Assembly (NCBI RefSeq): GCF_000520595.1
Contig: NZ_KI915003.1
Location: 11,108 to 46,888, forward strand
Direction of reading: 5' to 3'
Length of the DNA: 35,781 nt
DNA from: Arthrobacter sp. H5
Lineage (GTDB): Bacteria; Actinomycetota; Actinomycetes; Actinomycetales; Micrococcaceae
Numbering within the stretch: position 1 is the stretch's first letter; each line of letters begins with the position of its first letter. Shown in pieces: positions 11,589 through 35,781 of the stretch. The notes under the pieces were generated by a model, which saw only the letters and a list, made by a program, of their open reading frames with translations, was not told where the DNA came from and did not search any database. Both the position numbers and the translations under genes were made by a program.

Positions 11589-12718
11589 GCTCCAACCCCA
11601 TCACCTATGCAAGCGCCGGCGTGGACGTCGAGGCAGGTGACAGGGCCGTCGAGCTGATGAAGGATGCCGTCAAGGCAACCCATACGGATCAGGTGATTGG
11701 CGGCGTCGGCGGTTTCGCCGGCCTCTACGATGTGTCCAGGCTCCTGACCTACCGGAGGCCGCTCCTCGCCACGTCCACCGATGGGGTAGGCACCAAGGTG
11801 GCTATTGCGCAGGCCATGGACATCCACGACACCATCGGCTTTGACCTGGTGGGCATGGTGGTCGATGACATTGTGGTGGTGGGCGCCGAACCGCTGTACA
11901 TGACCGACTACATCGCCTGCGGCAAGGTGGTTCCCGAGCGGATCGCCGACATTGTGCGCGGCATCGCCGCCGCCTGCTCGGTCGCGGGAACAGCCCTGGT
12001 GGGCGGCGAGACAGCCGAGCATCCCGGCCTCCTGGGCGAACACGAGTACGACGTCGCCGGCGCGGCAACCGGAGTGGTGGAAGCGGACGCGCTGCTTGGC
12101 CCGGACCGTGTACGGGACGGCGACGTGGTGATCGGCATGGCGTCCTCCGGCCTGCATTCCAACGGCTATTCGCTTGTTCGACGGGTCATTAATCAGGCGG
12201 GCTGGGCGCTGGACCGGCAGGTGTCGGAACTGGGCCGCACACTGGGTGAGGAGCTCCTCGAGCCCACGCGTGTGTACGCTGCCGACTGCCTGGATCTCGC
12301 GCGGTATCTGCCGGTAAACAACGACGACGGCGCACCGGGATCAGTTCATGGCTTCAGCCACGTTACCGGCGGCGGACTCGCCGCCAATCTCGCCAGGGTG
12401 CTGCCGCAGGGAATGGAAGCAACGGTTGACCGTTCCACGTGGGAGCTCCCGCCGATCTTCAAGCTGGTTGCAGAGCTGGGAAATGTCCCTCTGCCTGACT
12501 TGGAGCGCACGCTTAATCTCGGCGTGGGCATGGTTGCCGTGGTGTCCCGCGAAGGTGCGGATGCCGCCGTCGCGCGCCTAACCGAGCGCGGTGTGCCCGC
12601 CTGGGTGATGGGCCAGATTGGGGAAGCCTCGGGCTCTAGTACAGACGGTCCGGACTACGTTCAGGGCGCCAAAGGCGTTAACGGTGGATCAGTGCGGCTG
12701 ATGGGCGCCTACGCCTAA
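11585..12718 (+). CDS. purM: phosphoribosylformylglycinamidine cyclo-ligase (AIR synthetase)
   Basis: PurM closes the imidazole ring, turning FGAM into AIR with ATP. The 377-residue protein begins with ITYASAGVDVEAGDRAVELM. It carries the family segments STDGVGTKVAIAQ, FDLVGMVVDDIVVVGAEPL, ALVGGETAEHPG, the substrate loop ASSGLHSNGYSLVR and GFSHVTGGGLAANLARVLP. All key motifs are intact. Its ATG overlaps the purF stop by 4 nt, so the two are translated from one mRNA. A 3' hairpin at 12793-12821 may end it. Confidence 0.97.
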   Translation: MSSNPITYASAGVDVEAGDRAVELMKDAVKATHTDQVIGGVGGFAGLYDVSRLLTYRRPLLATSTDGVGTKVAIAQAMDIHDTIGFDLVGMVVDDIVVVGAEPLYMTDYIACGKVVPERIADIVRGIAAACSVAGTALVGGETAEHPGLLGEHEYDVAGAATGVVEADALLGPDRVRDGDVVIGMASSGLHSNGYSLVRRVINQAGWALDRQVSELGRTLGEELLEPTRVYAADCLDLARYLPVNNDDGAPGSVHGFSHVTGGGLAANLARVLPQGMEATVDRSTWELPPIFKLVAELGNVPLPDLERTLNLGVGMVAVVSREGADAAVARLTERGVPAWVMGQIGEASGSSTDGPDYVQGAKGVNGGSVRLMGAYA

Positions 12719-32437: not shown

Positions 32438-32475
32438 TTGACGCAAACTGGTTTGCAGTACAAACTAGTTTGCAG
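32438..32475 (+). promoter_or_regulatory. promoter with two palindromic operators for the ABC operon
   Basis: TTGACG (32438-32443) is a good -35. CAAACTGGTTTGCAG (32444-32458) and CAAACTAGTTTGCAG (32461-32475) are direct copies 17 bp apart. The core CAAACT-AGTTTG is a perfect 12-bp palindrome in the second copy and off by one base in the first. The copies fill the spacer and overlap the likely -10 (TACAAA at 32459 or CAAACT at 32461). This is a typical repressor layout. The winged-helix protein encoded in the operon is the natural candidate. Confidence 0.7.
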
Positions 32476-32498
32476 AAGCCGAGAGAAAGCAGGACCCA

Positions 32499-33170
32499 AT
32501 GTCCACCGCACCCCAATCACCCAATGACCCAATGACCCAATGACCCAATGACGATAAGCCGCTGGACCTCCACGCCGCCCTGCAACTGGTCACCGCCGCC
32601 GAAACCCACGCCCGCAAGGAACTGCGGGGCAATGAGGCGTTGACCTACCTCATCTGGGGACTCGCCTGGCTGGTTGGGTTCGGCATACTGCATGGTTCGC
32701 GGTTCGGTTGGCTGCCGTTCGATTACGAGGTGGCACTGCTGGCTTTCGGCGCCATCCTGCTTGTTGCCATCGTCGGAACCATCCTGATGGTAGGGCGTTA
32801 CGCGCGGGGGATCCGCGGTCATTCCGCGTTCATCGGCGCCATGTACGGTGTCGCGTGGGCACTCGGATTTCTGGTGATGGGTATCCTCAGCGGCATCATT
32901 GCGCAGGTAGTTGAAGATTTCTGGCTGCGTGGGATGCTGATCAACGGCATGGCCATTCTGATTGTTGGTCTCCTCTACATCACCGGAGGCACAACGTTCA
33001 ATGACCGGATCCAGTCCTCCATGGGTATCTGGTTCCTGTTGATCAACATTGCAGCCCTCATGAGCGGCCCGGATCATTACCTCACCGTGTTTTTCATCTT
33101 CGGGTCCGGCGGGTTTCTGGTCGGCGCTCTTGTTGCAACTCTCCGCCGCAGGAGTGCCCAGCATGCCTGA
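32499..33170 (+). pseudogene. membrane protein of the ABC operon, interrupted after the start by an 8-bp repeat
   Basis: The frame resumes as LDLHAALQLVTAAETHARKE and LRGNEALTYLIWGLAWLVGF, then five or six membrane helices to 33170. It therefore starts well before 32640. The only suitable start is ATG 32499, in frame, with AGGA 4 nt upstream. Between lies a CCCAATGA array; its third copy puts TGA at 32541-32543 after 14 codons. With only one copy the frame would read straight through (223 codons now, 8 fewer then). The stop overlaps the next gene by 8 nt. Function unknown; probably a partner of the ABC ATPase. Confidence 0.75.
32512..32551 (+). repeat. octanucleotide tandem repeat (CCCAATGA)4 plus one variant
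   Basis: CCCAATCA (32512-32519) is followed by four exact copies of CCCAATGA (32520-32551). The unit is not a multiple of 3, so any gain or loss other than three copies shifts the frame of the gene started at 32499. The start codon context is itself CCCAATG. Confidence 0.97.
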
Positions 33171-33465
33171 CCTCGACCCGGTCATCCATGCCGAATCCCG
33201 CCTCCGGGCCATCACCACCCTCAACGAGGTAGGTGACCGGGACCGTGTCGCCTTCACCAAGCTCCGCAAGATCCTCGGAATGACAGCAGGCAATCTCTCC
33301 ACCCACCTGCGCAAACTTGAGGACGCCGGTTACGTGTCGGTCACCAAGACCATCGAGGGACGCACCCCCGCCACCTACGTGGCCATCACGCCCAAAGGCA
33401 AAGCGGCCTACGCCGAGTACCGGATCGCTTTGACCGAGCTCCTCACCGGAAAGGAACGCCCATGA
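33163..33465 (+). CDS. winged-helix transcriptional regulator
   Basis: A 100-residue DNA-binding protein of the MarR/ArsR-like winged-helix group (PF13601 type). RLRAITTLNEVGDRDRVAFT and KLRKILGMTAGNLSTHLRKL form the helix-turn-helix (about 10-50). YVSVTKTIEGRTPATYVAIT is the wing, and a short C-terminal helix (AAYAEYRIALTELL) would dimerise. ATG 33163 has AGGAG 8 nt upstream and overlaps the preceding gene by 8 nt; the stop overlaps the ATPase start by 4 nt. It probably represses its own operon through the CAAACTNGTTTG sites. Confidence 0.85.
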   Translation: MPDLDPVIHAESRLRAITTLNEVGDRDRVAFTKLRKILGMTAGNLSTHLRKLEDAGYVSVTKTIEGRTPATYVAITPKGKAAYAEYRIALTELLTGKERP

Positions 33466-34394
33466 ACACCGCCACGGCAGCCATTCCAACAACACGCACG
33501 ACGGCGGCACTCGCCTCCGCAACCAGTGTCACCAAGACCTTCGGCGGCACCCCCGCCCTGAGTGGTGTCAGCCTGGACATCCATTGCGGTGAGTCGGTGG
33601 GGTTGCTCGGACCCAACGGTGCAGGCAAGTCCACACTCATTGGGCTTTTCTGTGGACTCCGCCGCCCCGATTCCGGTTCCGTGGAGCTTTTCGGCCGGAA
33701 CCCCTCGAACCCCCACGCCCGGCTTCGGCTGGGAACCACACCCCAGGCAACCTCCGTTCCGCAGACCCTCAAGGTCCGGGAAACGGTCGACTTTGTTTCC
33801 GCCCACTACGCGGATCCCATCCCGACGGCCAGACTCCTGGCGGATTTTGGTCTGGTCGGCATGGCGGACAAGCAGTGCGGCGGACTCTCCGGCGGCCAGC
33901 AGCGCCGCCTGCTCGTGGCGCTTGCCCTGGTGGGCCGGCCGGATCTTGTCATCCTCGATGAACCCACCACCGGGTTGGACGTCGACGCCCGTGAGACCCT
34001 CTGGACCCGGCTCCGCGAGTATCGGAACAACGGCGGGACGCTGCTGATCACCAGTCATTACCTCGAGGAAATCCAGACACTTAGCAGCCGCGTGGTGGTC
34101 ATTGACCACGGCGCCGTCATCGCGGACGGCACAGTGGAGCAGATCCGGGGCCGCGTGGCAGTGAGCAAGGTGTCCTTCCGAACGGAGCTGCCGCCGTCGT
34201 CGTTCGCTTCCCTGCCGCACGCCGTGGGCGTTGAAACGCACGACGACGACCGCGTCACCATCGTCACTCGGGACGCCGATGCCACTGTCCGCACCCTGGT
34301 TGAGCAGCGACTCCCGTTCTCCGGGCTCGAAGTGCACGGCGCCAGCCTTGAAGAAGCCTTTCTCGCCCTGACCTCTAAGCTGAAGTTACGTTAG
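33462..34394 (+). CDS. ABC transporter ATP-binding protein
   Basis: A 310-residue ATPase of the CcmA/DrrA-like exporter type. The Walker A GPNGAGKST lies near residue 50. The signature LSGGQQRRL, Walker B LVILDEPTTGLD and switch histidine ITSHY follow in order, then a C-terminal accessory domain (about 225-310). Such ATPases pair with an ABC-2 permease encoded next door, but here a terminator and an IS transposase follow at once. The last residues (SKLKLR) may already come from IS sequence. The start overlaps the regulator stop (ATGA). Confidence 0.92.
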   Translation: MNTATAAIPTTRTTAALASATSVTKTFGGTPALSGVSLDIHCGESVGLLGPNGAGKSTLIGLFCGLRRPDSGSVELFGRNPSNPHARLRLGTTPQATSVPQTLKVRETVDFVSAHYADPIPTARLLADFGLVGMADKQCGGLSGGQQRRLLVALALVGRPDLVILDEPTTGLDVDARETLWTRLREYRNNGGTLLITSHYLEEIQTLSSRVVVIDHGAVIADGTVEQIRGRVAVSKVSFRTELPPSSFASLPHAVGVETHDDDRVTIVTRDADATVRTLVEQRLPFSGLEVHGASLEEAFLALTSKLKLR

Positions 34395-34398
34395 ACAG

Positions 34399-34439
34399 AA
34401 CGCCAGGAACCCCGGTTTGTCGGGGTTCCTGGCGTTTTT
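34399..34439. terminator. strong rho-independent terminator
   Basis: AACGCCAGGAACCCC (34399-34413) and GGGGTTCCTGGCGTT (34422-34436) form a perfect 15-bp stem with an 8-nt loop and a TTTTT tail on the plus strand. Read leftward the tail is TTCTGTCT, so it could also end the transposase transcript. It may belong to the IS end. Confidence 0.9.
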
Positions 34440-34456
34440 GGGTCCGGGGTGTCTGG

Positions 34457-35781
34457 CTACTTTCTGTGGTTTCGGGCGTGGTGGTCGACGAGGTCCATGG
34501 CCCTGCGTTGGCGGGCTGTGGGGACGGTGAGCAGTTCGAAGGTCAGATCGCTGGCGGGCTCGTGCTGGCCGTTAATGCTGTCGTGCTCCGGGGTCTGTGG
34601 TTTGGTGAGTTTAGTGGTGTTCCGCGTGCGGGTTGCCATGTGAGCCAGGAGGTCCTGGTAGCTGGTGGCGGTGGTCCCGTCGTCGAGTTTTCGGGTACTG
34701 GCCTTGCGCTCCGCGTCCGTGGATCGGGCCACTTTGGTGACCGGTTCCTCAGGTGTTGGACGGTTCTCGTCGGTGAAGGTCAGCGGTGCCCAGGCGGTGC
34801 GTAGGTGCCAGGTGAGGTGGGCTGCGAGCATGCAGAGGAAGACGTGGGCGCGGGTGCGGGGCTCGGTGTAGTGGCGGATCGGACGGATGCCCAAATCCCG
34901 GCTCTTGAGGGTCTTGAAGATCTTCTCCACGTTGGCCAGGGACTTGTAGGTCCGTACCGCTTCGGGGGCGTCCATTGTGGTTTCAGGGACGTTGGTGCGG
35001 ATGACATAGATTCCGTCCAAGTCCGCTTCGCGGGCGATGGATTCGGTGTTGCGTTCATAGGTGAACTTCTTATCGGTGATGACCAGGTGGAAGTGCTTGG
35101 CCATGTTGTAGGTGCCGACGGTCTTTCCGACCCGCACCCCGGTGGTGCCGGCGTTCTTGGAGCGGCCGGCCTGAACCGCTTTCTTGATGGCTTCGAGCTT
35201 CTCTTCGGTGGCCTTGAGCAGTTCGGTGCGCTTGTGGGCGCGCTTTGCTGCCAGGGCGGGGTTGCGACAAGCGATAAGACGTTCGCCCGGGTATTTGGGG
35301 TGGGTGATTTCGGCGAGGTTCTGCTCGTCGAACAGGCTCATCTGCAATGACCCCTCATCGTCGGCGAGCTTCTGGATGTCGGTGTTGCGCAGCGCGGTTA
35401 CCCAGCTGAAGTTGGTGTCCTTTTTGAGGTCTTCCACCCGGGCGTTGGTGATCATGCCGCGGTCCCCGACCATGACCAGGTCATCGACTCCGGAGAGGTC
35501 ATGGATTTCGGAGGCGATCTGGATGAACGCGGCCGGGTCGGCGGTGTTTCCGGGGAACACCCGGACCGCGATGGGCAGCCCTTGGCGGGTGGCGAGCATG
35601 CCGTATTCGATCTGCTCGCACCCGCGTTTCCTGTCCCTCGAATACCCGAATTTGGCCAGTGGGTTGTGGGTTCCGGTGACCCAGGAGGAGGACAGGTCAA
35701 AGAGCGCGAGGCGCTCGGGGTTGTGTTCGGGTCCCAGGTGGGTGCGGGCGAGCTGTTTTTCGATGCGGGGTTGCTGCTCGC
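34457..35781 (-). CDS. IS1634-like transposase (5' part outside the window)
   Basis: The frame runs from the window edge to TAG at 34457, giving 441 residues of a DDE transposase related to the IS1634/IS4 group. Visible catalytic pieces are LALFDLSSSWVTG (first Asp), MVGDRGMITNARV (second Asp) and YKSLANVEKIFKTLKSRDLG, the Y-x-E-x-F-type region carrying the Glu. RGCEQIEYGMLATRQGLPIA links the first two. No stop or frameshift is seen in this part, so the element may be active. The N-terminus and start codon lie beyond 35781. Confidence 0.9.
   Translation of the reverse strand, partial: EQQPRIEKQLARTHLGPEHNPERLALFDLSSSWVTGTHNPLAKFGYSRDRKRGCEQIEYGMLATRQGLPIAVRVFPGNTADPAAFIQIASEIHDLSGVDDLVMVGDRGMITNARVEDLKKDTNFSWVTALRNTDIQKLADDEGSLQMSLFDEQNLAEITHPKYPGERLIACRNPALAAKRAHKRTELLKATEEKLEAIKKAVQAGRSKNAGTTGVRVGKTVGTYNMAKHFHLVITDKKFTYERNTESIAREADLDGIYVIRTNVPETTMDAPEAVRTYKSLANVEKIFKTLKSRDLGIRPIRHYTEPRTRAHVFLCMLAAHLTWHLRTAWAPLTFTDENRPTPEEPVTKVARSTDAERKASTRKLDDGTTATSYQDLLAHMATRTRNTTKLTKPQTPEHDSINGQHEPASDLTFELLTVPTARQRRAMDLVDHHARNHRK

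Follow-up and report, generated by a model that had tools for sequence, protein, structure and literature searches.

Arthrobacter sp. H5 carries a tandem octamer repeat shortly after the start codon of the gene that leads an ABC operon, and the locus raises the question of whether this repeat is a device that switches the gene off and on or a mutation that has closed it. We addressed this question in a stretch of 35,781 nucleotides (hereafter the window), which is the end of contig C31 of a 104-contig draft genome of 4.33 Mb (4,325,474 bases), and in the corresponding loci of related genomes. Taken together, the array does not look like a reversible length-dependent switch; it looks like an ordinary loss-of-function mutation.

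The octamer array and the reading frame

According to the initial annotation, which was made from the letters of the window, ATG 32499 is in frame with a long membrane-protein frame, (CCCAATGA)4 lies seven codons downstream, and the third copy supplies a TGA. All three points were confirmed by direct reading and by Tandem Repeats Finder, which reported a tract at 32512-32552 with a period of 8, 5.1 copies and 96% matches. The exact CCCAATGA units occupy 32520-32527, 32528-32535, 32536-32543 and 32544-32551, and the TGA made by the third is the sole stop inside the frame that runs from ATG 32499 to TGA 33168-33170. The features of the locus are collected in Table 1.

Table 1. Position, strand and basis of the features at the membrane-protein locus (window coordinates)
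Feature	Position	Strand	Basis or remark
Probable promoter/operator region	32438-32475	+	Two palindromes; putative promoter function
Palindrome CAAACTGGTTTG	32444-32455	+	Part of putative operator pair
Palindrome CAAACTAGTTTG	32461-32472	+	Part of putative operator pair
Start region, SD-like AGGA and ATG 32499	32490-32501	+	Direct reading; relatives L005, L006 and L013
Degenerate repeat unit (near-copy) CCCAATCA	32512-32519	+	Directly before the exact units
(CCCAATGA)4 array	32520-32551	+	In coding sequence, seven codons past ATG 32499
TGA in frame of ATG 32499	32541-32543	+	15th codon, made by the third copy
Remaining membrane-protein frame	32544-33170	+	208 codons with a terminal stop and none before it
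TTG, earliest common in-frame start codon remaining past the array	32640-32642	+	Frame scan; comparison with relatives
HTH_34 winged-helix regulator	33163-33465	+	Start overlaps end of membrane-protein gene; PF13601
ABC ATPase	33462-34394	+	Start overlaps regulator stop (ATGA); PF00005
Left part of insertion sequence, DDE transposase	34380-35781	-	Continues past the window

To relate array length to the reading frame, we scripted copy numbers from zero to nine and read each version from ATG 32499. The frame was open at one copy only, so the earlier arithmetic was right. At zero copies the frame opens from TTG 32470 and yields an N-terminus that resembles none in the relatives looked at; at two to nine copies TTG 32640 is the first usable ATG, GTG or TTG. 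Because the 8-base unit contains a TGA and its length is not a multiple of three, arrays of three or more copies are closed in every frame, and a frame check located a TGA in each of the three frames from three units upward. The four-copy allele itself adds 24 bases and thereby keeps the frame, which one UGA alone interrupts downstream of ATG 32499.

In 200 first-order Markov copies of the window, we counted 13 arrays in total with a period of 5-12 and at least three copies, that is, ~0.07 per window, four-copy arrays being included in this count and not tallied separately. A 4.25-copy octamer is thus very unlikely to arise by chance, and a chance origin of the array was ruled out. The possibility of an element repeated in the genome was also ruled out, since three exact CCCAATGA units occur at a single place in the 4.33 Mb.

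The operon and its insertion sequence

The proposal that the membrane-protein gene belongs to an ABC operon held: the gene is followed by an HTH_34 regulator (PF13601), an ABC ATPase (PF00005) and, on contig C28, an ABC-2 permease (PF01061), in the same order as in relatives. The regulator has an SD-like sequence of its own (AGGAG at 33150-33154). For the membrane protein, Pfam and NCBIfam yielded no family at E 0.1, and 32 aligned homologs compared with Pfam yielded no consistent family (at most two of the 32 members per family, best E 0.0041); a PDB sequence search returned nothing at E 1, and a scan of the genome contigs with the membrane protein as the lone query returned no relative.

Ahead of the operon, two palindromes of the form CAAACTnGTTTG are spaced 17 bp from each other (32444-32472). 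In 49 of 80 related loci the motif CAAAvTnnTTTG lay no more than 250 bp ahead of the gene, in 31 it was absent there, and it did not occur elsewhere in 632,901 bases of those loci. Judged from this distribution, the palindrome pair is possibly a binding site of the operon's own HTH_34 regulator, and the ABC-2 operon (membrane protein, HTH_34 regulator, ATPase and permease) is probably autoregulated.

The insertion sequence begins at 34380, in the last codons of the ATPase gene, so that its end, CTGAAGTTACGTT, encodes the last four residues of the ATPase; the transposase ORF lies at 34457-35599 on the minus strand, and the genome contains three copies of the element's left end. The best permease match (82% to the permease of genome G026) was located at the end of C28, which has 183 identical bases in common with the window end. 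These bases lie inside a multi-copy insertion sequence, and the overlap therefore does not prove that C31 and C28 are adjacent. On C28, TCTAAG comes after the right end of the element, and the same hexamer stands before the left end at the ATPase, so that TCTAAG flanks the element on both sides; the gene order is as in relatives. From this arrangement the insertion sequence appears to separate the ATPase gene from the permease gene. Because the ATPase is nearly whole and the permease frame on C28 is intact (266 aa), the operon need not be dead.

The same end of C28 (L064, G000:C28:198000-205686) contains a 996-bp tandem duplication, 99.9% identical, which is either real or an assembly fault. 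It spans the right part of the insertion sequence and the 5΄ part of the permease gene, so that two permease frames stand in succession, one truncated (168 aa) and one full (266 aa).

The locus in relatives

The gene was matched in 10 of 38 genomes of the genus, the own genome included, with no match in the other 28, and in 61 of 395 genomes of the family, with no match in 334 (E 0.001 for both). The nearest matches bearing the gene came from Arthrobacter sp. H20, 260 and Bz4 (G015, G026 and G023, respectively), and the match was stop-free in eight of the nine other genus genomes that had one. We compared the locus in relatives, as the initial annotation had advised, and the array was absent from the start regions of all 110 ortholog locus records; some genomes are represented twice among these records, once in each of two collections, and in five records the match does not begin until residue 25-89, which places the start region only roughly. 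An array conserved among orthologs was thereby ruled out (0/110). Three exact units were found in the own genome only, and in none of the other 37 of the 38 genus genomes.

Among nine relatives in the genus, the gene seems to start directly after the palindromic operator in L007-L012, and in the three nearest (L005, L006 and L013) an ATG stands in a position equivalent to that of ATG 32499. In L006 a further in-frame ATG just past the operator is a possible start, and this relative could use either. With one copy of the octamer, the window gene would begin much as relatives do, with an N-terminus of similar length and start (L006, for example, has MTTQVPDSDQPLD). This ordinary length and kind of the one-copy N-terminus fits a recent expansion. 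A start at TTG 32640, which the initial annotation had named as an example of a start past the array that would refute the switch, received no support: in the eight relatives checked (of 80 loci), the site reads CTG in four, TGG in three and GGC in one. TTG 32640 was accordingly ruled out as the ancestral start.

Downstream of the array, the frame is intact, with no further stop and with a dN/dS inside the range of relatives. The dN/dS of the window gene against five relatives was 0.14-0.21, compared with 0.10-0.37 among those five, these values being rough because synonymous sites are near saturation. The rest of the gene thus displays no extra decay; the expansion looks recent, and the loss, if real, would be young. 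Long-standing decay of the gene was set aside, as dN/dS gave no sign of it. An allele that is off part of the time would also be compatible with the preserved frame past the stop.

The membrane protein adjoined the HTH_34 regulator in all 20 loci compared, and an ATPase match of usual size and place was present in 17 of these 20; L043 had none, in L048 the match shrank to 28 residues, and in L044 it was displaced by ~1.5 kb. An ABC-2 permease was seen after the ATPase in six of the 11 listed loci, and was read in five. In Arthrobacter sp. Bz4 (G023; L013/L043/L070), the ortholog has an early stop of its own, with the first 80 residues alone matching, and no ATPase match follows the regulator; by its sequence, this strain too has lost the membrane-protein gene. 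The genus can do without the operon, and in this group it has suffered damage more than once, which suggests a relaxed need for it. L044 and L048 belong to another genus of the family, and there too the operon looks as if damaged.

Probable expansion versus proposed switching or leaky expression

We consider it probable that slippage expanded the octamer in this genome alone and left a recent null or near-null allele in an operon that is dispensable and eroding. Established directly were the array with its stop, the dependence of the frame on copy number, the lack of the array in the relatives looked at, and the insertion sequence. In the ancestor, one CCCAATGA would have stood beside the near-copy CCCAATCA, and ordinary replication slippage would have expanded the octamer; slippage had been suggested in the initial annotation and is the likely origin. 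The expansion would have placed TGA at codon 15 of the operon's first gene, and the protein would be lost or nearly so. The operon would then have been hit twice, by the repeat expansion and by the insertion sequence that splits it.

The initial annotation had proposed slippage-driven phase variation, in which the array would change in length often and toggle the gene off and on. One part of this proposal stands, namely that a non-triplet repeat at the gene start closes the gene; the switch does not, because reading from ATG 32499 succeeds at a single copy alone and the open state therefore does not recur with copy number. A change of one or two units does not alternate open and closed frames, as all states from two to nine copies are closed. 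If three units were lost in one step, the frame would be open again, and such a return to the open state is possible on the sequence. However, the one-copy allele lacks any exact repeat, so that a high slippage rate is not expected of it, the unit carries its own stop so that three or more units are closed in all frames, the array was found in none of the 110 ortholog start regions, and an insertion sequence interrupts the same operon. The mismatch repair of this bacterium favors the proposal in one respect: a NucS gene is present (control search positive in 7 of 14 genomes), and MutS_V had no match in the genome (control positive in 11 of 14). According to PMC8228993, NucS cannot correct short indels, and slippage products would thus escape mismatch repair; the same review proposes that most short indels in these bacteria are cleared by polymerase proofreading, which would make slippage rarer. 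Nor did a sample of 695,110 bases of the genome contain a set of comparable arrays in gene starts. Overall, frequent toggling of a non-triplet array near the start of an otherwise intact gene is very unlikely here. A related scenario, in which NucS-type repair leaves indels uncorrected and the octamer expands from one copy and collapses by multi-unit deletion often enough that both states are always present in the population, seems more improbable still; if true, it would represent a rarely reverting off-allele in a soil actinobacterium, with the repeat unit itself carrying the stop.

The strongest rival to a null allele is leaky or re-initiated expression, because the four-copy allele stays in frame and just one UGA stands in the way of a full reading from ATG 32499. 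Read-through of this UGA would give the full-length protein with eight extra residues, and reinitiation via overlapping ATGA motifs, ending at TTG 32640, would give an N-truncated protein. Each copy contains an ATGA, a reading from ATG 32548 in another frame ends at TGA 32641-32643, whose bases overlap the in-frame TTG 32640, and the frame past the array is preserved. Whenever the base before a TGA is not C, however, an overlapping NTG is to be expected, and the relay at TTG 32640 is therefore not remarkable. Moreover, none of the eight relatives checked has a start codon at this site, no properly spaced SD precedes TTG 32640 by eye, and a start there would drop an N-terminal segment that is common to relatives. 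We regard such expression as unlikely, and an assembly or sequencing artefact, in which the true copy number differs, as highly improbable: the genome is a draft of 104 contigs and the duplication at the C28 end looks odd, but the array with its degenerate unit measures ~41 bp, which ordinary reads can span.

In the simple-sequence contingency loci of host-associated bacteria, such as the tetranucleotide loci of Haemophilus, the unit is stop-free in all frames, and the open state recurs at every third copy number, so that small slips toggle the gene. The locus described here resembles them in that a short non-triplet tandem repeat just inside the 5΄ coding end decides the reading; it differs in that the unit has its own stop, that the gene is open at one copy only and that no array was seen in relatives. 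Ordinary pseudogenes also arise by short tandem duplication. As in those cases, a private, recent duplication closes the frame and leaves the remainder intact, whereas four exact copies instead of two are present here, hence the visible array. Among actinobacteria, homopolymeric-tract phase variation is reported in Mycobacterium tuberculosis (PMC11898584, PMC6667613) and Propionibacterium acnes (PMC3224659). Those loci likewise involve a change of repeat length in or near an actinobacterial gene; they are single-base tracts with lengths reported to vary among strains or to arise frequently, in contrast to an octamer in one genome. In the available part of PMC10220949, phase variation refers to colony types, shown for Pseudomonas, and Arthrobacter appears in a reference only. 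Among the titles listed in literature searches, which covered 20 of 26 papers that pair Arthrobacter with phase variation, none dealt with repeat-length switching in a soil actinobacterium, which does not prove its absence from print.

A repeat at a gene start does not by itself make a switch: unit length and stop content decide whether toggling can occur, and at this locus it is hardly possible. As a null allele, the case is ordinary; it would matter more if both copy states coexisted, because mismatch repair in these bacteria leaves indels uncorrected.

The sample of the own genome mentioned above (16% of its 4,325,474 bases; non-triplet arrays, period 4-12, at least 22 bp) contained two further non-triplet arrays of at least 22 bp besides shorter ones, neither of them inside a listed ORF start. 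The corresponding count in relatives was five in 867,919 bases (100 loci), and the own genome is thus not visibly enriched. One of the two (L151:1851-1879, G000:C2) is TCCTG x5.8 at the 3΄ end of an ORF that by eye encodes a P-loop-like protein; it is the adjacent ORF that looks frame-shifted, likewise by eye. The other (L184:12552-12579, G000:C28) is CTGATTAT x3.5 just upstream of an ORF at 11762-12535 on the minus strand, which is phage-like by eye. Among the relatives, Isoptericola variabilis has CCGGCGA x3.3 (L118:3190-3212) upstream of the start of the ortholog, outside the coding sequence.
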